DNA of 64,000 nucleotides. It comes from Adineta ricciae (Eukaryota; Rotifera; Eurotatoria; Adinetida; Adinetidae). This document shows, piece after piece, positions 1,506-63,512 of the stretch. Where the stretch lies: the NCBI GenBank assembly GCA_905250025.1, contig CAJNOJ010000402.1:17265-81264 (forward strand), in the 5' to 3' direction. Position numbers and translations under genes: made by a program. How positions within the stretch are numbered: position 1 is the first letter of the stretch; every line of letters starts with the position of its first letter. The notes under the pieces were generated by a model that ran no database searches, was not told the DNA's origin, and saw only the letters and a list, made by a program, of their open reading frames with translations.

Positions 1506-3587
1506 ATGGAAGCGAGCAAGAGATTATCTCGATTAACAAAGAGCAATCTTGAAATATTTTCTATCGTATGGCTCGATACTTGCGTCAATCTTGTTCAGGA
1601 AAATCCTGATGTTCAACAACGAATTCGTGCAACAATCAATCATTTGGAAATATTTTCTGCGAAGGACGAATGTGAGCAATATATTCGATCTGTACATCCC
1701 AACGATCAGATCATTTTTATTGTCGACTGTCAATCTGGTCAAGACATTGTGCCTGACATTCATCAATTGCCACAAATTTCCTCCATATATATCTACTGTC
1801 TAGATAAGCAGAAATACGAACCATGGACGAAGTCATTCTCAAAAGTGAACATGATTTAATGAAATTGAACAAAGATTTTTTTCTTATAATTTAGGTTTTA
1901 GATCAAAAACGTTATTGCACATGTGGATGAATTGATCGAACAAATTCAGTCAGATCAAACTAAACGAGTTCATAATAGACATAACGAAACGCTTTCGATT
2001 GATTTTTTTCACGCAAATGAGAGTTCAGAGCAATCAAGTACGGCGCTAAACGGTCAATTTATTCATTCTCAACTTTTGATAAATTGTCTTCTTCGAATGA
2101 AATTATCGATAAATGATAAAAATGAGCTTATTTCGCTGTGTAAAGAAGAATACAACGGTAATCCAAGACAAATATCTATTGTTGGTGAATTTGAAACGAA
2201 TTATTCACCTGATCGGGCTGTATGGTGGTATACAAGAGATTCATTTCTATACAAAATCTTCAACAAGGCTCTTCGAATGCAAAATATCGATGTACTTTTT
2301 CTTTTTCGATTCTTTCTTCGCGATCTTGAACAACAACTGAAACAGTACAAATGTTCATCGACAATTCGTGTCTATCGAGGTCAACTCATATCGAATAACG
2401 AGCTAAACAAACTGAAAGCTTCGATCGGACAATTTATTTCAATGAACTCATTTCTATCAACGACTATCGATCGTGATGTAGCGCTCTTCTTTATTGGTGA
2501 TATTCATTCCTTAGACGATGAACTCAAGCCAATTTTATTCGAGATTGATGTTGATCCCCGACTTGATGGCACCAAACCAGTTGCTGACATAACATCGCTC
2601 AGTTACTTTCATGCCGAACAAGAAGTACTCATTATGCTCGGATCAATTTTTCGTCTTACTGATCTACATCAAGATGAGAACGAAATATGGATCGGTCAGA
2701 TGACGCTATGTAGCGATAATGATCATCACTTGAATCAAGTGTTTGAATTCATGAAGAATGAATATGGAACTGGAGAGACTGATCTTCTTTCATTTGGTCA
2801 TAAACTAAAGGACATGGGTAGATTTGACGACGCGGGCAAATACTATCGTCGATTGCTCAATGAACTACCGTATGATCATAAAGATGTTCCACGCTGTTAC
2901 CACAACCTCGGAAATATGGCGTTTCAAAAAGGAGATTATGATTCCAGTCTCCAATGGTATAATAAGTCGCTCGATATTTGGAATCGAACACTTGAGACGA
3001 ATGATCCTCTTCTAGCGACGGGCTACAATAATATTGGTCTTGTGTACGATGACCAAAATGATTCGAAGAAGGCACTTGAAATGTACGAGAAAGCATTGCA
3101 GATTTGGAAGCAAAAGTTTGGTGAGAACCATGCTAATATAGCCAAATGTTACAATAACATAGGTGTCGTCTATCGAAAAGAGAAAAATTATCATACGGCA
3201 CTTAAGTATTATCAAAAGGCACTGAGTATCCTGCAGAAGCTTCTTCCCGTCGATCATCCAGATTTAGGCTTACCACATAGTTGTATTGCCAATATTTATT
3301 ATTATATGGGCGAATATGACCTTGCCTTGCACTACCATGAGCAAGCACACAGAATCAAATTGAAAACTCTCCCTTCTCAACATTCCTCGATTGCAAATAC
3401 ACTTGAGAATATTGGACTTATTTACGAATGCAAGGGTGACTTACAACGTTCTCTGTCATATTATAGAAATGCATCCGACATATTTCATCATACACTGCCG
3501 TCTACACATCCAAATGTCATTAAAGTTGAGCAAAGTGTCAATCGCATTCTTTCAAAAATAATGTCAGAATGTGCTCTACATGAATAA
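1506..3587 (+). CDS. NAD:arginine ADP-ribosyltransferase with TPR array (copy A)
   Basis: Two exons, 1506-1844 and 1902-3587, with a 57-bp GT-AG intron (1845-1901), give a 674-residue protein. Residues 1 to ~130 form a conserved N-terminal region seen in all three ART genes here. The ART fold follows, with the R-S-E signature: R272 in VYRGQ, S296/S299 in NSFLSTT, and E352-Q-E354. The ExE spacing is the hallmark of arginine-specific mono-ADP-ribosyltransferases. From about residue 405 to the end there are six TPRs of kinesin-light-chain type, probably for protein binding. No signal peptide or membrane segment is visible, so a cytosolic enzyme is likely. The intron was placed because the frame ends in a stop just after KSFSK and resumes at IKNVIAHVDEL, keeping phase 0 in both copies. 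Substrate unknown. Confidence 0.9.
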
Positions 3588-11121: not shown

Positions 11122-13202
11122 ATGGAAATGAGCAAGAGATCATCTCAATTAACAAAGAGCAATCTTGAAATATTTTCTATTGTATGGCTCGATACTTCCG
11201 TCAATCTTATTCAAGAAAATCTTGATGTTCAACAACGAATTCGTGCAACAATCAATCATTTGGAAATATTTTCTACGAGGGACGAATGTGAGCAATATAT
11301 TCGATCTGTACATTTCGACGATCAGATCATTTTCATTGTCGACCGTCAATCTAGTCAAGACATTGTGCCTGACATTCATCAATTGCCACAAATTTCCTCC
11401 ATATATATCTACTGTTTAGATAAGCAAAAATACGACCCATGGACGAAGTCATTCTCCAAAGTGAATATGATTTAATGAAATTGAACAGAGGTTTTTTGTT
11501 ATAATTTAGGTTTTAGATCAAAAACGTTATTGCACATGTGGATGAATTGATCGAACAAATTCAGTTAGATCAAATTAAACGAGTTCATAATAGACTTAAC
11601 GAAACGCTTTCGATTGATTTTTTTCACGCAAATGAGAGTTCAGAGCAATCGAGTACGACGCTAAACGGTCAATTTATTCATTCTCAACTTTTGATAAATT
11701 GTCTTCTTCGAATGAAATTAACGATAAATGATAAAAATGAGCTTATTTCGTTGTGTAAAGAAGAATACAACGGTAATCCAAGACAATTATCTATTGTCGG
11801 TGAATTTGAAACGAATTATTCACCTGATCGGGCTGTATGGTGGTATACAAGAGATTCATTTCTATACAAAGTTTTCAACAAAGCTCTTCGAACGCAAAAT
11901 ATTGATGTACTTTTTCTCTTTCGATTCTTTCTTCGCGATCTTGAACTGCAACTGAAGCAGTACAAATGTTCATCCACAATTCGTGTCTATCGAGGTCAAC
12001 TCATATCGAAAAACGAGCTAAACAAGCTGAAAGCTTCGATCGGACAATTCATTTCAATGAACTCATTTCTATCAACAACTATCGATCGTGATGTAGCGCT
12101 CTTCTTTATTGGTGATACTCATTCCTTAGACGATGAACTCGAGCCAATTTTATTCGAGATTGATGTTGACCCCCGACCTGATGGCACCAAACCAGTTGCT
12201 GACATAACATCGCTCAGTTACTTTCGTGCCGAACAGGAGGTACTCATTATGCTCGGATCGATTTTTCGTCTTACTGATCTACATCAAGATGAGAACGAAA
12301 TATGGATCGGTCAGATGACGCTATGTAGCGATAATGATCATCACTTGAATCAAGTGTTTGAATTTATGAAGGATGAATATGGAACTGGAGAGACTGATCT
12401 TCTTTCATTTGGTCATAAACTAAAAGACATGGGCAGATTTGACGACGCGGGCAAATACTATCGTCGATTGCTCAATGAACTACCGTGTGATCATAAAGAT
12501 GTTCCACGCTGTTATCACAACCTCGGAAATATGGCATTTCAAAAAGGAGATTATGATTCCAGTCTCCAATGGTATAATAAGTCGCTCGAGATTTGGAATC
12601 GAACACTAGAGGCGAATGATCCTCTTCTAGCGACGAGCTACAATAATATTGGTCTTGTATACGATGACCAAAATGATTCGAAGAAGGCACTTGAAATGTA
12701 TGAGAAAGCATTGCAGATTTGGAAGCAAAAGTTTGGTGAGAACCATGCTAATGTAGCCAAATGTTACAATAACATAGGTGTCATCTATCGAAAAGAGAAG
12801 AATTATCATACGGCACTTAATTATTATCAAAAGGCACTAACTATCCTGCAGAAACTTCTTCCCGTCGATCATCCAGATTTAGGCTCACCACATAGTTGTA
12901 TTGCCAATATTTATTATTATATAGGCGAATATGACCTTGCCTTACACTACCATGAGCAAGCACACAGAATCAAATTGAAAACTCTCCCTTCTCAACATTC
13001 CTCGATTGCAAATACACTTGAGAATATTGGACTTGTTTACGAATACAAGGCTGACCTACAACGTTCTCTGTCGTATTATAAAAATGCATCCGACATGTTT
13101 CATCATACACTGCCGTCTACACATCCAAGCGTCATTAAAGTTGAGCAAAGTGTAAATCGCATTCTTTCGAAAATAGCGTCAGAGGGTGCTCTACACGAAT
13201 AA
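11122..13202 (+). CDS. NAD:arginine ADP-ribosyltransferase with TPR array (copy B)
   Basis: Exons 11122-11460 and 11517-13202, with a 56-bp intron (11461-11516), give 674 residues, the same length as copy A with no indels. The catalytic R272, S296/S299 and E352-Q-E354 are all kept, as are six C-terminal TPRs. Differences from copy A are scattered single substitutions that spare the catalytic motifs, consistent with selection on both copies. As for copy A, the likely reaction is transfer of ADP-ribose from NAD+ to arginine of a protein target chosen through the TPRs. That target cannot be read from sequence. Confidence 0.9.
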
Positions 13203-17386: not shown

Positions 17387-20300
17387 ATGGCATTCAAAAC
17401 AACATCGTTACAATTACCGATTCCTGTGTATTCTAATGTTCAAACTACTATTCCGATTGAAAATGAAAATAAAGAAAGTACAACTCTTCTTTGGGTATAT
17501 CCTAACACCGGTTTTCATCAAGACACTGAACAAACAAGAACATGTCTACGAAAAATTAATGATTTCGTTGTCTTTCATACTGAACTCGAAGTGTGCATTG
17601 CATTTATTGAATCGATAAAAGACGAAAAAATACTGTTGGTTACCTCAGGTTCCAGTGCAACTTCACTTCTACCACGTGTGATACATCTGCGCCAAATCGA
17701 TTCCATTTTTGTTTTCTGCATCCAAAAGGCTAAATATGAATACTTACTCAATGACTTTTCAAAGATTATTGGTATTTATATCAAACTTGATGAATTATGT
17801 CGATCTATCAAAGAACAAGTAAATCTTGTCGATAAACAAATGGAAGCATTTAGCTATTTTGATTATCATCAAAAATCAACAAAAGATCTAACGAAAGAAT
17901 CAGGTGCATTTCTTTGGTTTCAATTGTTTAATTATGCTATTTTACGTTTACCACGAAATGAACAAGCCAAAAAGCAGATGATTACAATATGTCGACAATA
18001 CTATCGCGGCAATACTGGCGAACTCAAATTGATTGATCAGTTCGATCGCGAATATCAACCAACAGAAGCTATTCGATGGTATTCCAAACAATCATTTATC
18101 TATAAACTAGTAAATAAAGCATTAAGAAGTGAAAATGTTGACCAGTTACATACATTTCGCTTTTATATTGGTGATCTTTCAGAAAGTTTAGCAGTCGAAC
18201 ATAAAAAATGTTCTCCTCAGGCGAAAAGGTACTAACTGTCTATCGTGGTGTTCAATTGGCAAGAGAAGAATTTAATAAATTGAAAGATAATTAAGGTCAA
18301 CTCATTTCAACCAATGGATATTTATCAACGAGTCGACGAAAATCACAAGCCATTGAATTTGCATTACAACCTACGAAACGAACAGATATCGTACGTGTTC
18401 TTTTTGAAATTGAATGTGATATACAACAATTAGGTGATCGTGTCATATTTGCCGATATTGCAAAATATAGTGATTATCCTGATGAACAAGAAGTTTTATT
18501 CGATATGAATGCAGCATTTCGAATAAACAGCATTCAACGTGAATCACAGTTCTGGTTAGTCAAAATGAATGCATCAAATCGTGGCCAAATGATCGCGAAA
18601 CATTATATCGAAGAAACAGAAGAGAAAAGTATTGCAATTATATTTGGACGATTAATGTGTAATTTAGGGCAATATGATAAATCAATTAGATACTTTGAGC
18701 AATTAATGAACGATCCGAATGATGAAGATCTCGCCTGGATTGAGTTCAATATCGGAAGAGGTTTCGATTTTAAAAATGATTGGAACGTGTCTCGAAAATT
18801 CTATGAAAGTGCATATCGACGAATGGTAAAATCAAATCCACCACGTTTCAAAGATTCAGCCTATGTGCTTAATAATATCGGTATTAGTCTTCGTTGTCAA
18901 GGCAAATACAATGAAGCTCTCGACTATTATCGACGTGGATTAAAATCACTACAAAAATTTTATCCCTCTGGACACAAAGATATTGCACTAATTCTTAATA
19001 ATATCGGAGACATTTTCTATTTACAAGGAGAATATTCTAAAGCTCTCGACTCATATGAGCAAGCACTAAAAATGCACCAAAAGCTGTATCCGACTGGTCA
19101 TGCGAATATTGCTATTAGTTTGAGCAATATTGGTGATATTTTTTGTAACAAAGACAAATATGATGAAGCATTAATCTATTATCAACAAGCGCTCGAAATG
19201 CAAAAGAAATATTATCCTTCTGGCCATGTTAAAATTGCGACGAGTCTTAATCGCATAGGTTCTATTCTTTATCATAAAGGAAAATATGACGAAGCAATCG
19301 TATATTTCCAACAAGCATTGAGTATACAAGAGAAAACATATTCATCTGGACATATTGACACCACTACTAGTCTCAATAACATCGGTGATGCTCTTCAAAG
19401 ACAAGGCAAATATGACGAAGCTCTTGTTTACTACCAGCGAGCGCTTGAAATGCAACAGAAAATATATATTTCTGATCATGTTGACATTGCTTCCAGTTTC
19501 AACAATATTGGTAACGTGTTTTATGAAAAAGGTGAATATGATGAAGCCCTGAAATACTATCACAAAGCGTTAAACATGCAGCAGAAATGAAATCCGACCG
19601 ACCATCCTGATATTGCTACTACTCTTAATTTCATTGGATCAACTCTTCATGAGCAGGGGCAGTACGATGAAGCCCTTGAATATCATAAACGAGCGCTGAA
19701 ATTGCAAGAAAAGTTTTATTCTTCCGATCATGTAAATATAGCTGATAATGTATATCGAGTTGCTCGAACACTTGCGAGCTTAGGAAAGTATGATAAGGCA
19801 CTAGATTATTATCGACGTGCGCTTAAAATACTAGAAAAGATTTTTCCATTAGGTCATGTTGACATTGCTCATAATCTAAACGGTGTTGGTACTATTCTCC
19901 AAAATCAAGGAAAATACGATGAAGCTCTTCACCGCTATAAACGAGCATTGGATATGCAACGGATGATCTACCCTTCCGGTCATGTAGATATGGCGTGGAC
20001 TCTAAATTCGATTGGTACAGTTTTTAATAGTCAAGGAAAATATGCTGAAGCATTGGATTATAAACAGCAAGCACTCAAAGTGCGTGAGAAGAATTATCCA
20101 TTTGGTCACGCCGACACTGCTATTAGCCTTGATGAAGTCGGTAGTACTCTTCGTTGTCAAAACAAAGATGACGAAGCTCTTGAATACTTCGAACGAGCGC
20201 TTAAAATGCGGGAGAATCTTTATGAATCTGATCATGCTGATATTGCTACCAGCCTGTGCAATATTGCCAATATTTTGTATAGCAAGGGAGAGTACGATGA

Positions 20301-25998: not shown

Positions 25999-26931
25999 TT
26001 AACGATTAGTCAATGTCGTACTTAATCCAGTAAGATTTCTTCGTCCGGAAAAAAGTTTTCTCAACGAATCTTTCAATGGTTCGGTGAAATAGAATAAAGT
26101 CGCAAGAAGTATTGGATACGGTAGTACGACGAACACATGTGAAATTCGATAATGATACAATGGAATATTTGTAAAAAATGATGTAAATATAAATGTTACA
26201 TATGGGACACCAAAGATCAAAAGCATTGACACTAATATCACAATTTGCTTCACCATCTTTAATTCCCGTTGTGCGCGAAAGAAGACATTCACAGCTGTTG
26301 CAACATTGTTTATTGATTTGGCATATAATACTAATCGAAAATACAGAAATATAATGATCACTACAGGCACATTATATGTGCAAGATGATATCCAGATGAC
26401 ACCAAAATTGAAGCTAAATAAGATTTCGCAATTTTGATTGTAAACATTGTAAACAATGTAACCAGTCAGCAATGGAATTAGAGGAAATAATAGACAAAAT
26501 ACGAAGGATATACACATAAGAAACAATTGTGTTCGAATCAATTGCCAAAATAAATGAGTCGGATAAACAGCCGTCATGTATCGATGAAATGTTTGTAATG
26601 TAAATGAATGTATCATCATAGCACACGATGCAGGAGTAAAGTAACCTCGAAATAAGCACATCGAATTGTAATATTGTAATTGTTTAAGATCATTTTCTAA
26701 TAGAAAGATGTACACCCAAGTCATGTTGATACTTGTAAGAAGTTGTGCAAAACATGTATAAGCAATAAACATCATCTGTAAGGTATGACAGGCTTTGTCG
26801 AAAATGATAAGAATTAGAAAAATACAATCGAAAATAATAGTGAGAATAAGAGCAAACATTGGTATGATATCTAATGGGATAAACCATGATTCGATAACGA
26901 CTGGAGTTAAAGTATTATTGAGTTCAGTCAT
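25999..26931 (-). CDS. Orphan class A 7TM receptor (copy C)
   Basis: A single exon of 310 residues with seven hydrophobic helices. An N-terminal sequon (NNT) lies outside. C92 and C168 are placed for the helix 3-loop 2 disulfide, and the DRY position reads H116-R117-Y118. Helix 6 ends in FGVPY, and a short basic tail follows FYFTEPLKDS. It is not closely related to the receptor at 5159/15171. Ligand unknown. Confidence 0.85.
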   Translation of the reverse strand: MTELNNTLTPVVIESWFIPLDIIPMFALILTIIFDCIFLILIIFDKACHTLQMMFIAYTCFAQLLTSINMTWVYIFLLENDLKQLQYYNSMCLFRGYFTPASCAMMIHSFTLQTFHRYMTAVYPTHLFWQLIRTQLFLMCISFVFCLLFPLIPLLTGYIVYNVYNQNCEILFSFNFGVIWISSCTYNVPVVIIIFLYFRLVLYAKSINNVATAVNVFFRAQRELKMVKQIVILVSMLLIFGVPYVTFIFTSFFTNIPLYHYRISHVFVVLPYPILLATLFYFTEPLKDSLRKLFSGRRNLTGLSTTLTNR

Positions 26932-28014
26932 TACTAATTCTTCTGCCGATATGTTACCATTGAAATTTTGTCTTTCGAATAAAAAGAATGAACTTGAATA
27001 ACTTCATTAATATTTTAAAAGAAGATTATTCTCCTTCCTGCGTTAAGACTCTTTTCATGACAGTAAAAGAAAAAGAAAGAAACTATACGACGTCAAAACT
27101 ATTCTATTCAGCAAACGTAATATCACTGAAAAATATGTTGTCTAGGAACTCATCTAGAGGGTGAGTGTGTGAATATGTCTTCGACTGGTATATTCATTCA
27201 AATGAGCAGTGCACAGAGGATGACTTAGAGGTACATTAAATGAAGTAATTCATGTTGAAGGATCTTTAATTTAAATATTTTGATCGGATTGAAAAAGAAT
27301 TATTTAGATTGCAAAACAAAACAATGATGAAGATTACACGATTTGATGAAAAGAAAAGTAATGAAATCGAAAGAGTTTTTTTTTACCGTTAAAGGCAAAG
27401 AACTTTTCTTATCGCCATCGTAAATCTAATTTTTATTATTAAGACGAATAGAAAGAGCATTTTATCCCACGAAAGATTTGCATCGTTCTAAGTGGATTTT
27501 GACGAAAAGAAAAGTTTTACATCAATTTCCTTTTTCAGCGTGTGTTGCTGAACAAAATGTCACTATTTTGTAGATTTTCACTTCGTTTTATCGTTGAATT
27601 ATTTGAGAATTTGCAAAATGAAGCATTTTGGTGACATTGAATGTTCGACTAAAAGATTTCCGACAATTTATGATTGTTACATTGAGAAAAGCTTTGGAAC
27701 TAGTTCAAACTCAAATTGTTGGGTGTAGCGTTCCGAACGATACTGGAAAGAAAATGAAGTTATTCCCAAATTTGAAACTGATTTACGTGTTCAAAGCGAT
27801 CTTCTAAAAACATCCAAAAGGATCTTTTCAAGTGCATCTTGTTGAGATTAATTATTAACAAGAAGATCAGCAACCATATTAGCATCGGCAATAAATACGT
27901 AATTTACAAATTAAAACAATTCAGTAAGAAAAAAAAGTATGTTTTTTCTTTCGAAGAAATTAAATTCAAGAAATGGGAAACAAACGCGTGAGTTACATCG
28001 CAGAAGGATATTGA

Positions 28015-36464: not shown

Positions 36465-38441
36465 TCAATTTGGTGATTGTAAACGAAAATTGTCAAATTG
36501 TACGTAGTCCCAAGATGATCCAATTGCAGCCCATCCAGAAGAACTAGATGCATTCAATTCACATCGACCAACTGCATCACCATTAACATATCCTATTGAA
36601 TAATCTTGTAAAACAACAAGTGTCAATGTATACCAAGTGCCAGCTACAATAGAAACCATTCCAGAAGCAACTGGATTTTTAATCTGCGTATTATTAGTTA
36701 TTTGCCAGAATCCATTATTAGTTGTACTGACACTGAATACAATGCCAGGACTTCCAGTACCACAACCTCCTTGTGATACTCCTAAAGCAACGAAAGCAGT
36801 TCCATTTTTCTCAATCGTAACATCCACACTAACATTTAAAGGTTGTTTCCAACTAGAATTACCAATAATAGTATATGGATAGATTGCTTCATCGCACCAA
36901 TTAATAGTTGTTTCAGGTACCATTTGTCTCATAGTTTTACCACGAGTGCTTGCTGTATCTATGATTTCCCATGAGCCTGTCTGATCAGAAAAATATGGTG
37001 CTTCACTGGATACCTGATGTTTGTCAAAATTATCTGCATATGGTAATGGAAATGGTTGAGATGGTGGAGCTTCGTAAGCACCTTTTGTACCGTTAATTGT
37101 TGAAAGAGTATAAAGTACACCAACTGGTAATTGAATTGTAAATTCTCCACTATCTAAAGTAACGATTCCTTTGTAGGTGAAGGCTTGATCTACATCCAAT
37201 ATATTGAGATCCGTGAAGAAAACATATAATTTAGTAATATGACTAAAAGAATTGTCGAGTTGGAAAGTTGCTGTTTGATTAGTTGTATTATAGTATACCG
37301 TACTCGAATGTGCACATTGAGAACGATCACGATCCATCGTTTCGATAATGATAGTCAATTGTTGACCAGTTGGATCGGTTAAAGAGACATAACTACCACC
37401 ATTATCGAGCAATCCAACACCTGATTGATGTTTCAAAAAGGACCATCCCGCTTTGGTAAACTGTCCCCAATGTGCTGATACCCATAGAAGTCGTCCAATT
37501 TGATAATGTCCTGACCATGGTTCATTAGCACGTAGTATTCCAACACCACCCCATGGTAATCCATCATAGAATGAATTAATTAAATCCCAAGCAATAGTTG
37601 CAGTTAAATTCGCACGAACGTAATTTTGATTCAATGATCTTGCCCAACATAGAGAACCGGTATCATAATCGAGTGACATATCTTCACTTGACCATTGAAT
37701 TTTGTCAAGAGCAGCACATTCTTTTGGTATAGATGAACCAACATAATGCGCTCCAATAACATCAACGGCAGCTAACCATTCAGGATCTTTAGCTAAAGTG
37801 TCGCAAAAATCCCACCATGAATCATGACCGACAATCTTTGTTTTGAGCCCAGCTGCAGCGATTGCTGCTTTGAGTGTGAGTGTATATCCTTTGTTCCAAT
37901 CACGTTCATTCCAAATTCCTACGTAATCAATATCCAGATTGTAATATTTCTTTGCACCTAAAAGCCAATTTATAGTATATCTAACAGTACTATTAGTCCA
38001 AGGCGATTTTGTTCCTTCACCGACCCAACCAGGAAATCCCCAACTGAGAGCATATAAAGTGATGTTTGGATTTCTTCGTTTTGCTTCCACCATGGTATTC
38101 CATTCATAACCTCGTCGATAATTTTCATCATCAGCTGTATGCATATGAGAAGGTTCTGTTCCATCAGTTGATTGCACATCACCACCAATTTCAACTTTAA
38201 GTATATGTAACGAAGCACCAAACCCTGGTAAAAATAAATAATCCATTATTTGACTATACCATTTGCTTTCATAATCTGCAAGTAAACGTGTAACACAACC
38301 ACCGCCACTCAATCCACCAACACCATCGAAACGTTTACTTAATCCCGTTGCTTTACTCACAGTATATGTGAATAATGCATCCGACATTGAAAAAAGTGCT
38401 ACGAATACACTAACTATAAATACAGCTTTGACCAGTATCAT
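36465..38441 (-). CDS. GALC: Galactocerebrosidase (GH59 glycosyl hydrolase)
   Basis: An intact single-exon 658-residue protein. A signal peptide covers residues 1 to ~22 (VKAVFIVSVFVALFSMSDA), so it is lysosomal or secreted. The TIM-barrel glycosidase carries GLSGGG near 43-48, the acid/base E179 in IWNERDW and the nucleophile E253 in WSSEDMS. These match the GH59 family that removes galactose from galactosylceramide. The C-terminal part has beta-sandwich and lectin-like character, with many sequons, ending FDNFRLQSPN. Length is close to the animal enzyme (about 670-690). No introns, unlike most neighbours. The gene stands between repeats and the C/D duplications and is single-copy in the window. 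Confidence 0.94.
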   Translation of the reverse strand: MILVKAVFIVSVFVALFSMSDALFTYTVSKATGLSKRFDGVGGLSGGGCVTRLLADYESKWYSQIMDYLFLPGFGASLHILKVEIGGDVQSTDGTEPSHMHTADDENYRRGYEWNTMVEAKRRNPNITLYALSWGFPGWVGEGTKSPWTNSTVRYTINWLLGAKKYYNLDIDYVGIWNERDWNKGYTLTLKAAIAAAGLKTKIVGHDSWWDFCDTLAKDPEWLAAVDVIGAHYVGSSIPKECAALDKIQWSSEDMSLDYDTGSLCWARSLNQNYVRANLTATIAWDLINSFYDGLPWGGVGILRANEPWSGHYQIGRLLWVSAHWGQFTKAGWSFLKHQSGVGLLDNGGSYVSLTDPTGQQLTIIIETMDRDRSQCAHSSTVYYNTTNQTATFQLDNSFSHITKLYVFFTDLNILDVDQAFTYKGIVTLDSGEFTIQLPVGVLYTLSTINGTKGAYEAPPSQPFPLPYADNFDKHQVSSEAPYFSDQTGSWEIIDTASTRGKTMRQMVPETTINWCDEAIYPYTIIGNSSWKQPLNVSVDVTIEKNGTAFVALGVSQGGCGTGSPGIVFSVSTTNNGFWQITNNTQIKNPVASGMVSIVAGTWYTLTLVVLQDYSIGYVNGDAVGRCELNASSSSGWAAIGSSWDYVQFDNFRLQSPN

Positions 38442-39904
38442 TATCGTTGTTAATCTTTTTGAAAATATTCACTAAAATATACATCAAGTATTACCGGCAA
38501 AACTACTGTTACTTCTTACCTGTGATATCAAATATGAATACTTTATACAACGAATGAATTATTTAAATATAGAACTCGAAAAACATGAGTTGAAGGATAA
38601 TATTGAGATAAATGTTTCATTACTGATAACAGGTACTAAGAACGGCACACAGTCTTGTGCGTACCTTTTTTTCCACATTTCAAAAAAGAAATGTAAGGAT
38701 ATAACAACGATAAACTATTATCGTTATATAATTTTGCATCTAAATCATATTTCAAGCCTTTTTAAAAGTTGAAAATTTTTACTTTCAATTATTATCACGT
38801 CCTTTTTCATTTTGATAACAATACGATCTGTCAACATTTTCTAAAATAATTCAAAATAAAAGTTATCGAATAGAAAAGAATTTTTCTGTCTTTCGAGGTT
38901 TTTCACATAGAATCGTACGAGACCATACATGGGTATAGAGAAACGATTCATGTGCTTAACGCGAGTTTTTGTTGTCGATATATTAATCGTTTTAATGATA
39001 ATGTATTTGGAAATCAATTTGATTGAATACACAATTCTGTCGCCAGTAACAAACATTGGCAATGAACTATGTTGACCCATCGAATTTAATAAATGACTAT
39101 TCACCTGCCGAGGATTCAAACTTTACCTTTAACCATCATCCCACAAGGTGTTAATAGTTCTACGATGTTGTGCAACTGTATAGAGTTCTCTTTTTGTTTG
39201 ATGAAAGTCTAAACAATTCTAGTTATGAATAGAAATATCAACGTCCATATAATTCCTTGATTCGCACTTTGTATACATATACACTTCTAAGATATAATCA
39301 TACGTGTTTATCAAATGCCTAAGGAAATCAAAGATCAAACTATCGCATAGACAAGATTAACATTTGCCAAATTCATCATTCTTAAAAAGCTCATCCCGTA
39401 ACTAAAGGGTTAAATTTCTTTTTAAAGATTGCAACTAGAATTATCATTGTACAAACAGATCTAATAATAACATAAATTCAGTAAAGAAAAGACGATTTGA
39501 ATTGACATTTCTATATGGTGATGTATATTTATTCTTTATGGTCTTTCAATAATAATTTTTATTATTGCAAGAGGAATTGAATTTGGTAATGATAAAACAC
39601 CAAAATGGTCAACATCTGTTCTTACAGAATTTTTTGAATCGATTTTTTTAAACTCAACCAATCAAAGTAATTGTTTTGATATTTAAAGATCATTTGTCTG
39701 TCAATATTCTTTGCATTTTTTTATCGAAATTCAACGAATGATTAAAAAGCAATAGGTTTAATAACTTTTATGAGATCAAAGATGGATAATCCACTTGTTG
39801 ATGGTTACGTCGAATTCACATGATTGAATAAAGAAAAAGAAAGGTGGTATTAGAAGTGTTTCTTCCTCGTCGTAATTTGAATATGATGCTACATCACGGC
39901 CTTA
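38442..39904. other. Intergenic, no gene recognised
   Basis: Upstream region of the GALC gene. AT-rich, short random frames only; no repeat or transposon end identified. Confidence 0.55.
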
Positions 39905-44598: not shown

Positions 44599-45531
44599 TT
44601 AACGGTTAGTAAATGTCGTACTTAATCCAATAAGATTTCTTCGTCTGGAAAAATTTTTTTTCAAAGAATCTTTCAATGGTTCGGTGAAATAGAATAAAGT
44701 CGCAATAAGTACTGGATACGGTAGTACGACGAATATATGTGAAATTCGATAATGATACAATGGAATATTTGTAAAAAATGATGTAACTATAAATGTTACA
44801 TATGGGACACCGAAGATCAAAAGCATTGACACCAATATCACAATTTGCTTCACCATCTTTAATTCCCGTTGTGCACGAGAGAAGACATTCGCAGCTGTTG
44901 CAACATTGTTTATCGATTTGGCGTACAATATTAATCGAAAATAGAGAAATATAATGATCACTACAGGCACATTATACGTGCAAGATGATATCCAGATGAC
45001 ACCAAAATTGAAGCTAAATAAGATTTCGCAATTTTGATTGTAAACATTGTAAACAATGTAACCCGCCAATAATGGAATTAAAGGAAATAATAGACAAAAT
45101 ACGAAGGATATACATATAAGAAACAATTGTGTTCGAATCGATTGCCAAAATAAATGAGTCGGATGAACAGCTGTCATGTATCGATGAAATGTTTGTAATG
45201 TAAATGAATGTATCATCATAGCACATGATGCAGGAGTAAAGTAACCTCGAAATAGGCACATCGAATTGTAATATTGTAGTTGTTTAAGATCATTTTCTAA
45301 TCGAAAGATGTACACCCAAGTCATGTTGATACTTGTAAGAAGTTGTGCAAAACATGTATAAGCAATAAACATCATCTGTAAGGTATGACAGGCTTTGTCG
45401 AAAATGATAACAATTAGAAAAATACAATCGGAAATTATGGTGAGAATAAGAGCAAACATTGGGATGATATCTAATGGGATAAACCATGATTCGATAACGA
45501 CTGGAGTTAAAGTATTATTGAGTTCAGTCAT
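44599..45531 (-). CDS. Orphan class A 7TM receptor (copy D)
   Basis: 310 residues, collinear with 25999-26931. C92, C168 and HRY are kept; changes are mostly conservative (helix 1, the loop-3 end VATAANVFSRAQ, and the tail KKNFSRRRN). Intact like copy C. Confidence 0.85.
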   Translation of the reverse strand: MTELNNTLTPVVIESWFIPLDIIPMFALILTIISDCIFLIVIIFDKACHTLQMMFIAYTCFAQLLTSINMTWVYIFRLENDLKQLQYYNSMCLFRGYFTPASCAMMIHSFTLQTFHRYMTAVHPTHLFWQSIRTQLFLICISFVFCLLFPLIPLLAGYIVYNVYNQNCEILFSFNFGVIWISSCTYNVPVVIIIFLYFRLILYAKSINNVATAANVFSRAQRELKMVKQIVILVSMLLIFGVPYVTFIVTSFFTNIPLYHYRISHIFVVLPYPVLIATLFYFTEPLKDSLKKNFSRRRNLIGLSTTFTNR

Positions 45532-48500
45532 TACTAATTCTTCTACCGATATGTTGGCATTGAAATTTTGTCTTTCGAATAAAAAGAGTGGACTTGAATA
45601 ACTTCATTAATATTTTCACACGAAGATGATTCTCCTTCCTTCGTTAAGAATCTTTTCATCATAGGAAAAGAAAAAGAAAGAAGCTATGTGACGTCAAAAC
45701 TACTTTACTCGGCAAACCTAATATCTCTGACAAATGTGTTGTCTAATAACTCATCTAGAGGGTGAGAGTGTGTCAATATGTCTTCGCCTGGTATATTCGT
45801 TCAAATGAGCTGTGCGCAGGATGACTTAGAGGCACATTAAATGAAGTAATTCGTGTTCAAGGATTTTTAATTTAAATATTTTGATCGGATTGAAAAAGAA
45901 TTATTTAAATTGCAAAACAAAACAATGATGAAAAGAAAAGTAATGAAATCGAAAGAATTTTTATCGTTAAGGGCAAAAACTTTTCTTATCACCATCATAA
46001 ATCTAATTTTTATTATTAAGACAAATAGAAAGAGCATTTTATCCCTCGAAAGATTTCAATCGTTCTAAGTTGATTTTGGCGAAAAGAAAAGTTTTACATC
46101 AGTTTCCTTATTCTGCGTGCGTTTCTGAAAAAAATATCATTATTTTGTAGATTTTCACTTCGTTTTATCGTTGAATTATTTGAGAATTTGCAAAATGAAT
46201 CTTTTTGGTGACATTGAATGTTTGACTAAAAGACTTCTGACAATTTATGATTGTCACATTGAGAAGTCAAACTGTTCGGTGTAGCGTTCCGAACGACACT
46301 GGAAAGAAAATGAAGTTATTCCCAAATTTGAACGCGTGAATTAAATCGCAGAAGGATATGAAGATGAAGAGAAATTAAATCAGTAACTTTTATATCCTGA
46401 GGAAATTTGTGTTGATAAAAATCAAACTGTTTTTATTGCGGATTTCGTAACTGATTGAAGTATTCGATGGAAATAGAATGAAGAGAAAGGAACAATTGTT
46501 GTAGAGGCGAATGAAAGAAAAAGACTTTTTTTTCATTCTATTTTCTTTCTTGCTATTTTTCTTATAAATTGATTTAAATCGCTGGTTCGTATACAGTGAA
46601 TCCGTGAGCTTTTATCACCATTGAAGCAGGTGAAAAACTATGTTCGTTAAATATTAATAGCAAAATCGTATTTAAGAAATTGGATAACAACTGCTTCTCG
46701 CCTATAAGATGCACATACAACGAAGCCTGACTTAGTGATCTAATCTGATATTCTCATGAAACTGTTGAGAGAAAAAAGTTACCAGATGGTTTATGGGTTT
46801 CATTTTGATTCTTTGAATCTTCGATTGTGGTCATATATTTAAATTTGATTATGAGAGTTATGCAGATGTGCGTCAACTGATGTCAAATAGAACAATACAT
46901 CTGCTGGAAATATTCATTTTGTTAACGTAAGTAATGAGATTTAGCTTTTCTCAAAACGGAACAAACTACAGATCGTTCATTTTAAAAAAATCCTGTGAAA
47001 ACGCTTTCACTACGTACATTTGGTTTTTTTTCCTACGAAGAAATGTTACCTACGACGTGTTTCTTCTATCTTATTTTGATTTCCAAGCTATTGGCTGCAC
47101 CACAAATCAATCTGGATTTTACAATAAATGAAAAAGAATACAATGATGCAAATGGTAGCAGATATAACTGTTTTCGACTTGCTTCGAATATGAATTATGT
47201 AAATAACACTCGACACATCTCTACTTATTGTCTGAGTGAATCATCATTGAAATTTCATATTGACAATGATCGCTCATCACAAACGTTTTCCTTCGCTGAC
47301 CTTGCAAGACTAAATATTACCAGTGAAGATTTATATATCTGGTCCACACCACTCGATATTATTGAACAATATCAAATCTATTTAGAAACAAATGATTTAT
47401 CTTTGTCGAAACAATTCTTTTATAATTGCACATTACCAAGATTCGGATCGATGTGTCAGTATGAATTCTATTATTATCACGAAAATTATTCATCCTTGTA
47501 CGAAATGATTCGTGGTTATTATAAAATCAATTCTGTTATTCCAGATAATCTCACTTGTTATATGCATCTAAAATGTCATCGAGGTTATCCACCGATATGT
47601 TTAGATTGGACGGAAATTTGTGATGGAAAAGTTGATTGTTTGGATGGCAATGCTGACGAAGAACATTGTTGGCAACTTGAATTTAATGAATGTCAACCGA
47701 ACGAATATGTATGTGATATTGGACAATGTATACCGAATGAATTTGTTCGAGATGATCAACACGATTTTGATTGTATCGATCGATCAGATGAGAAAGCACC
47801 AAATCTTAAGAGCCTATTGCAAATGAACACATACGAACCTACATTTGGGTCTGAAGATTTTCGATGTGAAGGTGAATTTCTATCTCGATCTTGTGTAATT
47901 TATCGTCATACTGTAATGTCCGAATTGATGTTTCCAGTCAAAGATAGTTCCATTTCAAGTGAATGCTGGTTAGCTTTTCAATGTTATTTAGCTTTTCCAA
48001 ATCGAATCCATCCCGGAAAGCAGCACGATCTTAGAAAATGCATATCTACAATAAAAGAGACTTGTCCAGATGTTCTCTACGTTCCAAATATTCCAATCTT
48101 TTTTGGACACGTTTATACAGCCTATAGAACCAATCGTACAGAGTTTGTCAACGATTACACTTTACCGTATTTATGTTCAAACAAGCCTTTTCATTTTCAA
48201 TCGCCCAATATTGTATCAGGTGCGTCGATTAAAAACACAACATGTTTCAAAATTCGTCGCTTCACCGAGGAAATGCCAATTTATTTGTTTGGCTGGTTGT
48301 CTCGCTATTATATGCCCTTAACTAACATGTATAGGCAACTTGAAGAAACAAATCCCATAATAAATTTTCCTGTGAATCGATGTAATGAAGCGAACATCTA
48401 CCAATGTTCGAATTCATCGAAATGTATTTCATTTCATCGTTTAATGAATAGTATCTTCGATTGTCCTTATCACGATGATGAGAATATCTATGAAGATACA

Positions 48501-54511: not shown

Positions 54512-57500
54512 CAGAGACGTGCGGGGCAGGGTTTTTTCGTGCCCCGCGGGCCCCGTCCCGTGGTGCCTGTTAAATCCGCCCCGCCCGACCCCGTAGAGAA
54601 TATCTTGAAAGTCTTACCCGCCCGCCCCGCCCGTATTGCCCCGAGAATATTTGGTTTAATAATTGAATTGTAGGTTAGTGATGTGTTTTATATATTGTAT
54701 TTATTCAGCGAAATAGGACATTTATCACAAGACAATATTTAAATTAAGATGTTAAATTAGAAGCAGCAGATCGAACCAAAATCATATCGTTAACCAATGA
54801 TGGATTGATATTACTTCTTCTCTGCGATATAATAACACCAGCTGAGCTGAATGCGCGTTCAACTGCTGCAGATGAAGCAGGAACACAAAATATTTTCTTT
54901 GCTAACTTAGTCAAGTTAGGTAATAAACATTCTTGCTCTTGCCAGAAAACAAGAGGATTATCATCTTTATCATTCGAGCTAATGCATTTATTTAACTTCA
55001 TTTGTAAATATAATTCAAACTCACGACGAGCGTACATCGAGCTTGTTACGGTTTTCTTCGAATCGGAACAATCTTGGTCATCGTCGTAATTCTCTGTATA
55101 AGGCTTGAATTTTTTCTGAGGCGTAGGTGAAGTACTAGTAATTGTTTCTGATTGTGTTGACGTACCACCATTAGCTTGATTTGTCTCGATGATCTTAGTT
55201 AATTCTGCCCGAATTAAATCATAAGCATGGCTACGTTCATAATCTGTAGCAAGCTTGAGCATGCGTGTACGGGGATTAAGTACAGCAGCGATCCAATGAA
55301 GATCATGCAAATTAAACATTATTTTAAGCAATTGTCGAGTACGTCGTTTGAAAAAAACAATACCTATAAAAATTCAAATAATTGAATGGTTTTTCCTGTA
55401 TGGCTAATTACCTTTAGCAGTTTTGTTAGCTGCTTCGTCTCTTGTGACAACCAAACTCTCCAGCAGATACCAATAAGATGTAACAACTAGATGAAGAGAT
55501 GGTTTTCTAGTAGTTTGTACTCGTTCAATAACATTTTTCCATGGTGCAAATAAACTAGTTATAGCAGCTACACTTGGAATATCGATCGAAGGAAGAGTAT
55601 GAAGAACACCTTTATCACTTGCAATAGTTGTTAATGATGAATATGATGCAAGCACACTTTCGAGTAATTGTGACATTGTCAGTCAGCGAACTATAACTTC
55701 TTGTTTGATTGTTGGTTTTGACAGTTCTTGTAATAAAGGATTCCAGTTCACCTAAATTAAGAATGAATTAAGAAGTGAATAGAAATAGTCAGCTGTGATA
55801 TTCTATAGACATTACTCTCTTAACATAACAGCATAATTGCTTGCATCGACTTATCACTGCAAGTATTTGAGCGGCATAAGGAGGCAAATTTTCTTCGAGT
55901 ACATTTATATGATCACTTTCAGGTGACGACGATGATGATAAACTTCGAAGAGCTAATTCAATTGATTTTTCATCAAGAACCACTTCATCATCACATTCAC
56001 TTTCACTAGAATCTCGATCGTCATAATCCATAAGTCCATCGTCGTCACGAGTGGTAAAATCATTCCATGTTGATGGAGTAATACGTTGATCGTTATTCGA
56101 GTTTTTTTTTTCTTTTTTTCTTTCCGTTTTGTCTCGAGTGCCTGCACTATAGAATGCTCGCTTGAGCGCATTATTCAATCGATGAGGAAAGCAATGTACG
56201 ACTTGATAATCTTCCAACGCTTTTACTAAGTTGCTACCACGATCACATACGAAAGTTATTTTGTTCATACAATCATCAAGTCCAAACTTAGAAAGAGCAG
56301 AAGTGATGGCCTATTGAAGAAGAAAATAAGAACAATGAAAGGGTAAATCATTATTCTTCCAACCTTGCGAATATTTGGTGCACGTTTGTTTATTTCAGTA
56401 TAAGGTTCACAACATAATTCGATCGAATGTAAACTATTGCGTTCATCGATAAAATGCCCTGTAATTCCCAGATAATTATTTTGCTTGAATTTATCACTCC
56501 ATAGATCCGGACTAATTGCTAAAACGCCCTGTTCAGCTGCAGATTTCAATACACCACCTAGAGATGCACGAATATCATCCGCTTGTCTACTGATTTCTCG
56601 TGAGATGGACCAGCGTGATGGTACAATATCATTTCCACTAATATTTGATAAAGAACCTGAATAGAATAAAATAGATAATCAAAACGTTATGAAACTAGTT
56701 AGTTAGATATATTTCATACCAGTATTCCAAGTTAAACATTTTTGAATGATACTTATAAAACCTTCGTCCTCGACGATGCTGATTGGTCGCATATTTTGAC
56801 ATACCCATGTGCCAATTAATTTGGTTATTGTTTTTTTCTTTGCACTAATTAAAGGACTGTTGTTAGAATACACAGAAGAGGATTTGGAACTAAAAGTACG
56901 GATACAATCAGCGAATAAAACTAAGAGATGTATTACTTCAATGATGAAATAGGTGATGATGTAAATGGTAATTCTTTTGGACATTTGTGAGAATTTAACG
57001 ATTTCGTAGATCCATGTGTATATGTGTAAGTTGTGAAACAGGATCGGCATGATGCGAATTTGTTTATAACACTGTCACGATTATTTTCATCTCTTATTGC
57101 CGGAAGACCAAACTTTTTCCAGCATGGAGACGGTTTTGCATGATTGACATTTTTATTGTCCACAAGCACGTATTTTGTTGGTTGATCTTTTAAAAGTTTT
57201 TTTATGTTGATGGCATCATACTTCATGGGATTTTATGCATGTTCGGTAGATGTACAAACAGACGAAGATGTTTGACGAACATCTGACGTACCGTCATCTG
57301 ATTCACTAGACAATAATTCGTGTAGCTCGATCATTGATTGATTTCAGAGATTGATACAAAATCTGAAGAAATATATTTAATTATATGAGATTTCAATTGA
57401 TCTTGATTGATTATGTTAGTGAAATGATCAGGTTTTACTAATAAAAATCAAACAATGAAAAAAGATAAAGAACAAGCTCCATTCACGGTGATAGGTGCAG

Positions 57501-59588: not shown

Positions 59589-62500
59589 ATGGATCAATTG
59601 CGAAACATCTATCGATATTTGTCGAAATTAAATGTATATGAAAACGAAGAAACCAGTAATGAGCATATGAAAAGAAATGAAATTCTCTCAACTAGAATTT
59701 ATTTTATCATTCTTCTCATCATATTATCATCCTATATTACAAATATGTTATTGTTAAGTCGAATGAATACTTTAACAATTACAAAACCAACACAACAACA
59801 ATATGAAAAATTAAAATTAAAATATCCAATTAGTTTAAAATGTCTCTGTAAAGAAATATCAATTCCATATAAACAGTTAATTAACATCCAAGTCGAATAT
59901 TATGAAATTTGTTTATCTGATTTTACCAAACAAAAATGGATTGATTATCTTTTTAATGAAAAACTTAAATATTATCATCCATTTGATTTTCGTCGCGTTG
60001 CACCATTCAAATTTCAATTACTTCGAACACTATGTCAACAGTCGAAACGATTCATTGATGATAATCTTGAAGAATTTTATTCAAATCATTTGATTTCAAA
60101 GGAACCTATGTCAGTGGATGAATTTCATATTCAAGTGAATTTTTTTATTAAATCATTTCAACAAACAACACGTTATCTATTAGAGAACTTAGTCACACTA
60201 ATTGAAGACACAATGTGCGTAAACTTTTTATTAACAGCAGTCGATACACACTTTATTTACAAAACCAGGGTAGAATTTGTGTATATGGGCTCTGAAAACA
60301 TTTGTTATTATAATACCAAAGAGAAGAAAGTAAAACATTCCAGCTGCACTTGTAGAAATAAAGAACATACAAAGCACCCTGAAGATATTTACGGTGCTAT
60401 AGAATGGTTTGAATATCATTCGTGTCGTGCACTTGAAGATGGCTTATATGACTCAAATAAATATCCCGGTGTTCAAATACCTGGAATGATTGGATGTTGT
60501 TTACCAATCGAATCATTGAGATATTCAACATTAGAATGTTTTTATGAGCAATCCTGTTTGGATATTATAGGCCTGTATACCACTCATCCGTCGATTTCAA
60601 CGAGCGATTTCTCGATATTAAAGCACGATTCATCAGCAAAATCTATAACAATCGAAGAATTAATCAAAAAATCATTTGTAAAACAATGGTTTAATATCAC
60701 ATCATATGAGAAATATTTTAGTTACTGTCAACCTTTGTCTTGTCAATATACAGCTGGACAAGGGAAAAGTCTTTTTTATATATTTACAACAACTATTAGT
60801 TTATTTGGCGGATTAAAATTGATTCTTCCAGTTATTGTATTATATGTTGTGGCACATATTCGAGAGGAAGAACAACAACAACGATTGACAGACAATACTG
60901 ATGCAAGTAAGTTGTTCTATCTGAAAAAAAAACCGAGTGCTTGAATTTGCGAAAGTCAATCTCAAGTTATAATTTCATCAACATTTGTTTCAATAAATTT
61001 TCTTTGTCTTTCAGCATCGATAAGAATCCGTTTATCAGCAATATTAAAAATGGTGAAGATTTTCATTTTAAAATTGAATATATTTGATAGTTATTCAACA
61101 GATGAATATAAAGAAAAAAATGAAATTTTATCAACAAGAATTTATTTCATTGTATTATTTTTATCTCTAACACTTTTTTGTATTTTTCTTTCATTTGAAA
61201 AACAAATCAAAACCATATATTTTTCGAAGCCATCACGGACTCAATTTGACGAATTGCAAAATAATTCCTTAGATCAGCTTCAATGCCCCTGTACACAAAT
61301 CTCACTTAAATACTCGGAATTTATTCAATTTCGTCCAACTTATCATCAGATATGTTCCAGTATATTTGTTTCACCAAATTGGAATCAATGGGGTGCGAAC
61401 TGGAAAAAACAGGGTCCTTGTGCTTCTTCTGATTTTATTAATCAAGCACACAATTATTTTTATCTTTTATCAGCGTATTGTCAATTATCACAAGACATTG
61501 TATTAAAGGAGTTAGAACATTTTTATGTAATGCAATATACAACATCTGGTGTTATTCAATTCAAACAATTTGACAGTGAAGTTAAATCAGTTATTGAAAA
61601 CTTCAAAGTAAAAACACAAAAATCGCCGAAAACACAATTAAATATTATTCAAAGTGTTATTTTTAATAATCAATTTCTATCTCATTTAAGAATTGGTATG
61701 AGCCATCGAATTCAATGTTGCAATACTACTACTACAGTCAAACATTTACCGATGAATTATGACAATTGTTCATGTGCTACTGATTCAACATGTCATAAAA
61801 CGAATTTTTTCTGTCGTGAAACCATTTACACATCTATACCAAATATTTATTCCGGTTGTTACTTCATTGATTCATTGTTATTATCACAAACATCATGTTT
61901 TTATGATGAAAAATGTTTAGATATAATCAGGAGATATATGGATCCAAATACTATTCTTTATGGACAAATATTTCCATTAGATATTTCGAAAAAAACTCGA
62001 TATAAAACTAATGTAACTATAGGGATATTACTTGATAATTTATTTATTGAAGAATGGAATGATTTTTATTCATATGATAAATATTATAGTACTTGTCAAC
62101 CATCATTTTGTTCATACGAAATTCAAGAGCGACGAAATTCGATTTCTATACTAACAGAAATCATTGGTATATATTCAGGATTAACGATTATCATTAGGTT
62201 TCTAATACCAAATCTTGTTCGTTTGATTCGAAGAAGAAAAAGACATGTTCAAGTTACTGCAACATTCGGTCGATTAAATTTTCTTTTTCAATTATGTAAA
62301 ACTAAATTACTTAAGTTGAATTTATTTCGAAATCGATCAACTGATTATCATACAGTACGAAAACAAATCATAAGCACACGTTCATATTTAATTACTTTCA
62401 TCCTTACTTTATCTCTTTGTATTTTATACACATCATTAACTAACAAATTCATTACTGTTAAATTTCAATTAAAAGATTTAAAACAATATGAACAATTATA

Positions 62501-63512
62501 CAATAAATATCCAAACACGTTAACTTGTTTATGTAATGAAATATCAATAAAATATGAAGAATTTATTCAACTAACACCAATTTATCATGAAATTTGTTCG
62601 TCAGATTTTATTCAACAAAAATGGATTGATTATTTATTAGTTGAAGAAAATGTGAATGATCGTAACTTTCAGGCCACAGGATCATTTCAATTTCAAGCTG
62701 TAAGATCATTATGTCGATTAATAGAAGAAACAGTGGATTTGAGCTTAACACAACTTTATTCAACAATGTTTGTCAGTAATCAATTGATATCGAGGGATTC
62801 ATTTCAGAATAGAATCGATAATACTGTGGATTTATTTATAAAATCGACAGAACAAAGATTCAAACACATATTTCAAATTACTCGTGAGATATTTCATGGA
62901 AGTGCAGTATTAACAACTCATCAAACAAATTGGGAGTATGATGTTCTATTAAATAAATTGAATCAATACGTATTTTATACAAAAGCAATAACATACAATA
63001 ACATGTCATGTACATGTGCAACTTCCTTACATTGTGTAGAAGCAGCAAAACTAAATGGTATATCTATTAATGGTTTATTCACTGGTTGTTATCCAGTTGA
63101 ATCTATGTTACTTTCTTCATTTGAGTGTTTATATAATAAAACATGCGTAGATTTTATTTTATCAAATATCGCACAAAAATTGCCAATGATTGAAGTGAAA
63201 GTTTTACAGTTAAGAACTAAATTTGGTATAAATGAAACTGTTCAACATATGGTTGATCGATTATTTGTTAATGAATGGAATCCAAATTACTCGTATCTGA
63301 ATTATTCGAAAAAGTGTCGTTCAACAGATTGTACTTATTCATTTATACAGAAATTTAATGCATTATATACAATAATATCAATTTTAAATTTATATGGATG
63401 TGTAACAATTTTATTAAGTTTTCTAATTCCATCTTTCATTGAGATTATTTTTCGAATATATAATAGAAAAACACAAATGACTATTGTACCAGCGGTACCT
63501 GTGCAAAACTGA
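59589..63512 (+). CDS. Triple tandem two-pass membrane protein with Cys-rich ectodomains
   Basis: Exons 59589-60906 and 61015-63512 are joined by a 108-bp intron (GTAAGT…TTTCAG, phase 1), giving 1271 residues. The protein is three diverged copies of one ~400-residue unit. Each unit has a short N-terminal stretch (NEILSTRIYF / NEILSTRIYF / KQIISTRSYL), a helix, a large cysteine-rich region and a second helix near its end. Helices lie at about 37-57/405-430, 480-502/815-838 and 893-915/1221-1245. Shared marks are C-x-C before EISI/QISL-x-Y, Y-x-x-I-C-x-S, a CxC plus C cluster, G-C-Y/C-(F/L)-P/I-(I/V)-(E/D)-S, an E/S-C-(F/L)-Y…C-(L/V)-D block, and C…C-x-Y before the second helix. This topology resembles DEG/ENaC or P2X subunits, but I see no clear family motif. 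Function unknown; a channel is only an inference. Confidence 0.85.

Follow-up and report, generated by a model that had tools for sequence, protein, structure and literature searches.

Trimeric channels assembled from two-pass subunits are represented by two well-described systems. The DEG/ENaC channels (ASIC, ENaC, FaNaC) are trimers of two-pass subunits whose hallmarks are an HG motif before helix 1 and a G-x-S filter in helix 2, and the P2X receptors are likewise built from two-pass trimeric subunits, with a disulfide-rich ectodomain that holds 10 conserved Cys residues. In the voltage-gated Na and Ca channels (Nav, Cav), on the other hand, four 6-helix domains are carried by one chain, the number of domains equals the size of the ring and the positions are specialised; how single subunits gave rise to such four-domain channels has long been asked, and few intermediates are available. 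We know of no natural three-unit trimeric channel that has been described as such, a statement that covers keyword searches of one open-access library and leaves absence unproven. An engineered counterpart is the linked human dUTPase, in which three subunit copies and their linkers form a covalent pseudotrimer that is a functional molecule (PMC4827122).

The window considered here, a stretch of 64,000 nucleotides from the rotifer Adineta ricciae, contains a gene at 59589-63512 whose 1271-aa product consists of three homologous two-pass units (Table 1). A slight preference is given here to the reading that the product of this gene is a pseudo-trimer made by nature in a single chain, which would assemble, and might conduct, as one polypeptide and is probably a receptor or a channel. 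As in the linked dUTPase, three subunits of a trimer would be joined in one chain, although that enzyme is man-made whereas the family described here occurs in nature, resides in the membrane and has specialised positions in one clade. With Nav and Cav it would have in common the character of a natural concatemer with specialised positions, while those channels are four-fold and of another architecture and the present family is labile up to three units across paralogues.

Table 1. Exons, units and predicted membrane helices of the three-unit gene, with positions counted from the first letter of the window.
Feature	Position	Strand	Remark or basis
Exon 1 (start Met, unit 1 up to the C-terminal tail)	59589..60906	+	Met here in 12/12 clade position-1 units
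Intron (108 nt, GT-AG, phase 1)	60907..61014	+	GTAAGT...TTTCAG
Exon 2 (remainder of linker 1, then units 2 and 3 in a single open frame, and the stop codon)	61015..63512	+	
Unit 2, residues 447-862	61035..62282	+	unit alignment
Unit 3, residues 863-1271	62283..63509	+	unit alignment
Unit 1 helix 1, residues 37-55	59697..59753	+	hydropathy
Unit 1 helix 2 with SLFGG, residues 403-421	60795..60851	+	hydropathy, alignment
Unit 2 helix 1, residues 482-500	61140..61196	+	hydropathy
Unit 2 helix 2 with GIYSG, residues 815-843	62139..62225	+	hydropathy, alignment
Unit 3 helix 1, residues 897-915	62385..62441	+	hydropathy
Unit 3 helix 2 with NLYGC, residues 1226-1244	63372..63428	+	hydropathy, alignment

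The first-pass annotation had described this gene as one frame of three homologous units across a clean intron, which is confirmed by the exon/intron model and by blastp. Units 2 and 3 occupy a common open frame of 855 codons, to which unit 1 is added via the phase-1 intron; the frame of exon 1 is open in the 5' direction as far as 59319, and the start Met at 59589 lies at the place conserved across the group of genes to which this one belongs (hereafter the window's clade). Comparison of the units by blastp (U1/U2 1e-49, U1/U3 2e-55, U2/U3 4e-59) gives 27-28% identity nearly end to end. Hydropathy yields one helix pair per unit, if the lower additional peaks around residues 200-218 and 440-462 are not counted as membrane helices, and each unit has a Cys-rich ectodomain of about 310-350 residues. 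The three helix 2 patterns, said to occupy the same place in each unit, indeed fall in identical columns of the unit alignment, and unit 1, singled out earlier as the most different in its loops, is the longest unit and carries an extra loop. The linkers are rich in Lys and Arg (0.17 and 0.26 per residue versus 0.09-0.12 in the ectodomains) and 10 of the 11 N-glycosylation sequons lie in ectodomains, so that it is reasonable to predict, as had been proposed, that the unit boundaries fall in cytoplasmic linkers. Twelve Cys positions are shared by 85% or more of 64 units of the family. A Lys or Arg in the middle of helix 2 is found in 45/64 family units, the window gene having Pro, Arg and Ser at that spot in units 1, 2 and 3; such a residue would be unusual for a cation pore and agrees with an anion path, or with a receptor that does not conduct, as readily as with a cation channel.

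It could be argued that each unit is a separate gene and that the fusion is an illusion of annotation, since 26 of the 37 within-gene unit junctions (24 loci) are interrupted, the unit matches lying 31-1407 nt apart, a Met is found upstream in half of the position-2 units of the window's clade, and single-unit genes exist in the family. Yet two or three units stand in uninterrupted frames at the window gene, C345, C422, C430, C180, C208, C225 and C153, and the other 11 junctions are in-frame continuous. Three units are contained in single frames of 1279 codons at C345 and 1314 codons at C422, while a 1287-codon frame at C747 has matches to all three window units, and because these frames are uninterrupted the three-unit fusion is independent of intron prediction. 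At the split junctions, the window's own included, the best GT-AG join is phase 1 in 24/26 cases (the exceptions being one C483 junction, phase 0, and one C282 junction, phase 2), an excess that is to be taken as a pattern and not as a probability, because the junctions are kin, two pairs of loci are almost copies of each other and the joins were ranked by an ad hoc splice score. Each split junction offers 2 to 22 possible joins, of which only the phase of the best was used, and a 27th split junction, which separates two C225 genes (best join phase 0), was set aside. A start Met, taken as a Met 5-20 residues ahead of a conserved Asn, is present in 12/12 position-1, 6/12 position-2 and only 1/12 position-3 units of the window's clade; outside it the pattern is weak (5/9, 3/10 and 3/9 for positions 1, 2 and 3) and the start may sit in an exon of its own. 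A separate gene for each unit, with these multi-unit frames and the start codons missing at unit 3, is rejected as highly improbable. In terms of open frames the units are genuinely fused, and the natural concatemer of the earlier interpretation is well supported at the gene level by the recurrent triple form, the uninterrupted frames in paralogues and a sample maximum of three.

The family was searched in the animal's own genome (130 Mb, 1033 contigs) with units 3, 1 and 2 of the window gene and four paralogue units as queries, and for each query 96-102 of 1340-1427 first-look candidates were scored. At least 279 unit matches were obtained in at least 153 runs, a run being defined as same-strand unit matches with gaps below 2.5 kb, with overlapping rows merged by eye. 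Among the matches listed, one unit is found in 68 of the 153 runs, two in 47 and three in 36, and the runs flagged at 4 (C433) and 5 (C985) pieces are fragments of three units. Four full units occur in 0/153 runs among these matches, in which the counts per run are lower bounds; 11 of the 47 two-match runs contain a gap of 1.35-1.51 kb, which corresponds in length to a single missing unit, and frames with room for another unit hold several of the two-match runs.

Reading of the DNA at 21 runs gave a maximum of three units in 21/21, and 13 have three full units, namely the window gene, C278, C407, C345, C553, C583, C483, C220, C422, C208, C153, C139 and C225a. The third unit of C208 was matched from profile position 49 on, while at C225a one unit is cut by the fetched edge but full in the search matches and another matches the profile from position 42 onwards. 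A single unit was read at C391 (L059) and C292 (L060), both isolated, with 6.4 kb read at each; two at C225b; two and a fragment at C351 and at one C193 run; one split and one partial unit at a second C193 run; two and one cut at the fetched edge at C206; and three broken units at C985. The maximum of three holds for this sample, in which the 5' flanks read at C278, C407 and C345 span only about 0.2-0.35 kb and the listed triples at C411 and C675 abut contig starts, so that further units are possible there, as are four-unit genes outside the sample. The number of units is labile, and the one- and two-unit genes weaken the view that three is obligatory and strengthen the view that three is a ceiling. 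The single-unit members at C391 and C292 constitute natural controls for a possible homo-trimer assembly by one unit.

The descent of the positions was followed in a maximum-likelihood tree of 64 full-length units from 23 gene runs, which leaves out units 2 and 3 of C985 (broken), unit 1 of C225a (edge-cut), unit 1 of C859 (not fetched) and the units of L012, L013, L015, L017, L018, L022, L026, L029-L031, L033-L035 and L038. In the window's clade, of which 13 genes were sampled, the position-1, -2 and -3 units form three clades with support of 100/100, 100/99 and 100/99. The position trees of 11 genes have 5, 5 and 7 of 8 splits in common versus 0.26-0.32 after relabelling (as many in 0/10,000), and their agreement indicates that in this clade the triple was inherited as a block. 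Mean identity is 0.40-0.43 between genes at one position versus 0.27-0.28 between positions of one gene (10 genes). In the ectodomain, at least one of a pair of neighbouring conserved Cys residues is missing from the position-1 units of C407, C278, C965, C180, C430, C777, C985 and the window gene, and elsewhere among the 64 units only from unit 2 of C220; this is probably a position-specific loss of a disulfide and a sign of specialisation.

Elsewhere in the tree the units group by gene, as all three do in C139, C220, C553 and C583 and both do in C225b, while units 1 and 3 of C422 join with unit 2 apart, and C483 is not resolved. The tree fits either a renewed origin or a homogenisation of these gene-clustered triples. 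Over all 64 units the position labels change 17 times (least possible 2; shuffled mean 30.8), and position is therefore not a property of the whole family. The proposal that each unit is free to diverge is supported for the window's clade, with its position-specific clades; over the tree as a whole the positions do not form three clades.

With regard to selection, the near-identical triples C345 and C747 give a dN/dS of 0.25 for unit 1 and 0.29 for the rest, and this purifying selection indicates that the triple is maintained. A copy of the window gene is found at C985:5700-10700 (L039), 93-95% identical in DNA in three main aligned pieces, with a dN/dS of 0.62-0.68 in three pieces; its frame is broken, it contains an insertion and an internally duplicated stretch, and this copy, on a 12-kb contig, is decayed or misassembled.

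Under the pseudo-trimer reading, each unit would act as a membrane module made of two helices and a Cys-rich ectodomain, three such modules would pack side by side in fixed order, and one chain would supply what the single-unit relatives would need three chains for. Unit exons bounded by phase-1 joins could be duplicated without a break of frame, and the number of units would thereby rise easily and come to a halt at three, since the ring would then be complete. The specialised positions of the window's clade would produce a fixed 1-2-3 hetero-trimer, whereas several other genes, the units of which are closest to those of their own gene, would give rise to assemblies resembling homo-trimers. 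A natural concatemer of a three-part ring would be expected to show what is seen here, namely a maximum number of units, a fixed order, block inheritance and specialisation of positions. Points in favour of the pseudo-trimer are the uninterrupted triples, the finding of no run above three among the 153 listed and the 21 read, the phase-1 joins, the position clades, the congruence of the trees, the start-Met pattern, the 12 Cys residues and the dN/dS of 0.25-0.29. Against it stand the one-unit genes at C391 and C292 and the two-unit C225b, by which three is not obligatory, the weak start-Met pattern outside the window's clade, the position labels that do not form three clades, and a model of unit 3 with a pLDDT of 50, a pTM of 0.34 and a best Foldseek E of 2.6. 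On balance, assembly of the trimer within one chain is somewhat favoured, and a channel role deserves less confidence than that.

Three could also be a historical accident, in which an ancestral triple was copied in blocks and gene conversion homogenised some of the copies, the modules being perhaps beads that provide avidity in ligand or cell contact and form no ring. The window's clade, as one block-inherited triple, agrees with this explanation, and in C139, C220, C553 and C583 concerted evolution is indistinguishable from re-triplication in the tree. We consider it rather unlikely, as the number of units is labile, falling to one at C391 and C292 and to two at C225b, and yet no sampled run exceeds three; moreover, the first two units of C583, a triple, have an identity of 0.92, the top within-gene value, and are by this measure young or freshly homogenised. 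A broader version of the pseudo-trimer reading, advanced here tentatively and with somewhat less than even confidence, would see in the family a new, lineage-expanded group of trimeric receptors or channels, in which free duplication of phase-1 unit exons takes the number of units from one through two to three, where selection puts an end to it, the older members being fixed-order hetero-trimers and the others homo-trimers.

Although the concatemer of the first-pass annotation stands at the gene level, the DEG/ENaC or P2X identity that went with it is unsupported by sequence. Neither PF00858 nor PF00864 matched any of 20 scanned members, the three window units included, at E up to 10, in scans where HMMER filters discard most weak matches, and a genome-wide search with PF00858 listed 90 matches, none on the window's contig (C402). 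Comparison of profiles by hhalign with the genome's own ENaC-like proteins gave a probability of 0.5% (20 units versus only 3 rows) and, when repeated, of 0.4% (64 units versus only 7 ENaC-like rows). The HG motif occurs in 0/64 family units, versus 4/7 ENaC-like rows that have it within the first 60 residues and a fifth (L003) that has it further in; [GS]xS is present in 7/64 units, right at the GG and off the place of the ENaC filter, and both of the 2/7 ENaC-like rows that reach the filter region read GIS.

The protein might nevertheless be a trimeric channel of DEG/ENaC type that has diverged very far and been fused in a single chain, since its units share the gross plan of those channels, two helices flanking a large Cys-rich ectodomain (hydropathy, Cys count). 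The GG at the start of helix 2 and its spacing from the last ectodomain Cys appear ENaC-like by eye, and the best local profile match falls at this same spot in helix 2, but with a P of 0.15 (64 units versus 7 rows). The AlphaFold2 model of unit 3, for which the other two units served as the alignment (three sequences), places a strand after helix 1 and another before helix 2, as in the palm of such channels, though at its low confidence no weight is given to this and the Foldseek matches obtained with it are meaningless. Against these resemblances weigh the lack of a PF00858 match in the scanned units, the hhalign probabilities of below 1%, even if the ENaC side had only 3-7 rows, and the absence of HG from all 64 units and of G-x-S at the ENaC place, and such a derivation is regarded as doubtful. 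The family differs from DEG/ENaC also in having three units per chain, and the PF00858 matches of the genome are located elsewhere than the window gene. Pieces of PF00858 genes adjoin or interleave family genes at C208 (about 86.5-88.0 kb and 95.4-97.1 kb) and C55 (about 149 kb).

With the P2X receptors (PF00864) the family shares a two-pass subunit with a disulfide-rich ectodomain, and it differs from them in the missing Pfam match, in its 12 conserved Cys versus 10 and in an ectodomain that is helix-rich in the low-confidence model of unit 3. Pfam scans of the units returned only sub-threshold chance matches (MS2 lysis, MerB and the like), sequence searches of the PDB with the units gave no match, and no relatives were found by pattern-and-tblastn of viral contigs and prokaryote genomes or by tblastn of plasmids. 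In the scans made, the unit family therefore appears as one without a significant Pfam or PDB relative.

Large, tandem and diverging gene families often serve chemosensation or self-recognition, and by analogy a sensory or self-recognition role may be suggested for this one. The likeliest function would be that of a surface receptor or ligand-gated channel within a lineage-expanded repertoire of sensory type. Large lineage-specific expansions of multigene families, e.g. of 7-transmembrane receptors and repeat proteins, have been described in Adineta vaga (PMC3846280), neither of these named examples being the two-pass unit family. One genome appears to hold one-, two- and three-unit genes, with both uniform and specialised triples and none sampled above three. 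If the chain closes the ring alone, a membrane family would contain a trimer that nature builds from a single chain, the size of the oligomer could be read in the genome from the ceiling on unit number, and one genome would display every stage from homo-oligomer to concatemer.

Several other features were noted in the window, among which its ADP-ribosyltransferase/TPR proteins, rhodopsin-type receptors and hAT transposase domain agree with the bdelloid origin assumed in the first-pass annotation. Two 561-residue frames with nearly identical first 50 residues lie about 9.6 kb apart on the forward strand (1902-3584 and 11517-13199); the former, the only one of the pair that was scanned against Pfam, combines an ADP-ribosyltransferase domain with TPR repeats, and both also occur at 18295-19587. 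On the reverse strand, two 334-residue frames (26002-27003 and 44602-45603) are nearly alike in their first 50 residues, and the first of these had no Pfam match. A galactocerebrosidase-like frame of family GH59 with all three Pfam parts is located at 36468-38468 (reverse strand), and a hAT transposase C-terminal dimerisation domain at 54747-55373 (reverse strand) marks a transposon or its remnant about 4 kb before the three-unit gene. Rhodopsin-type receptors are also present in the window according to Pfam.
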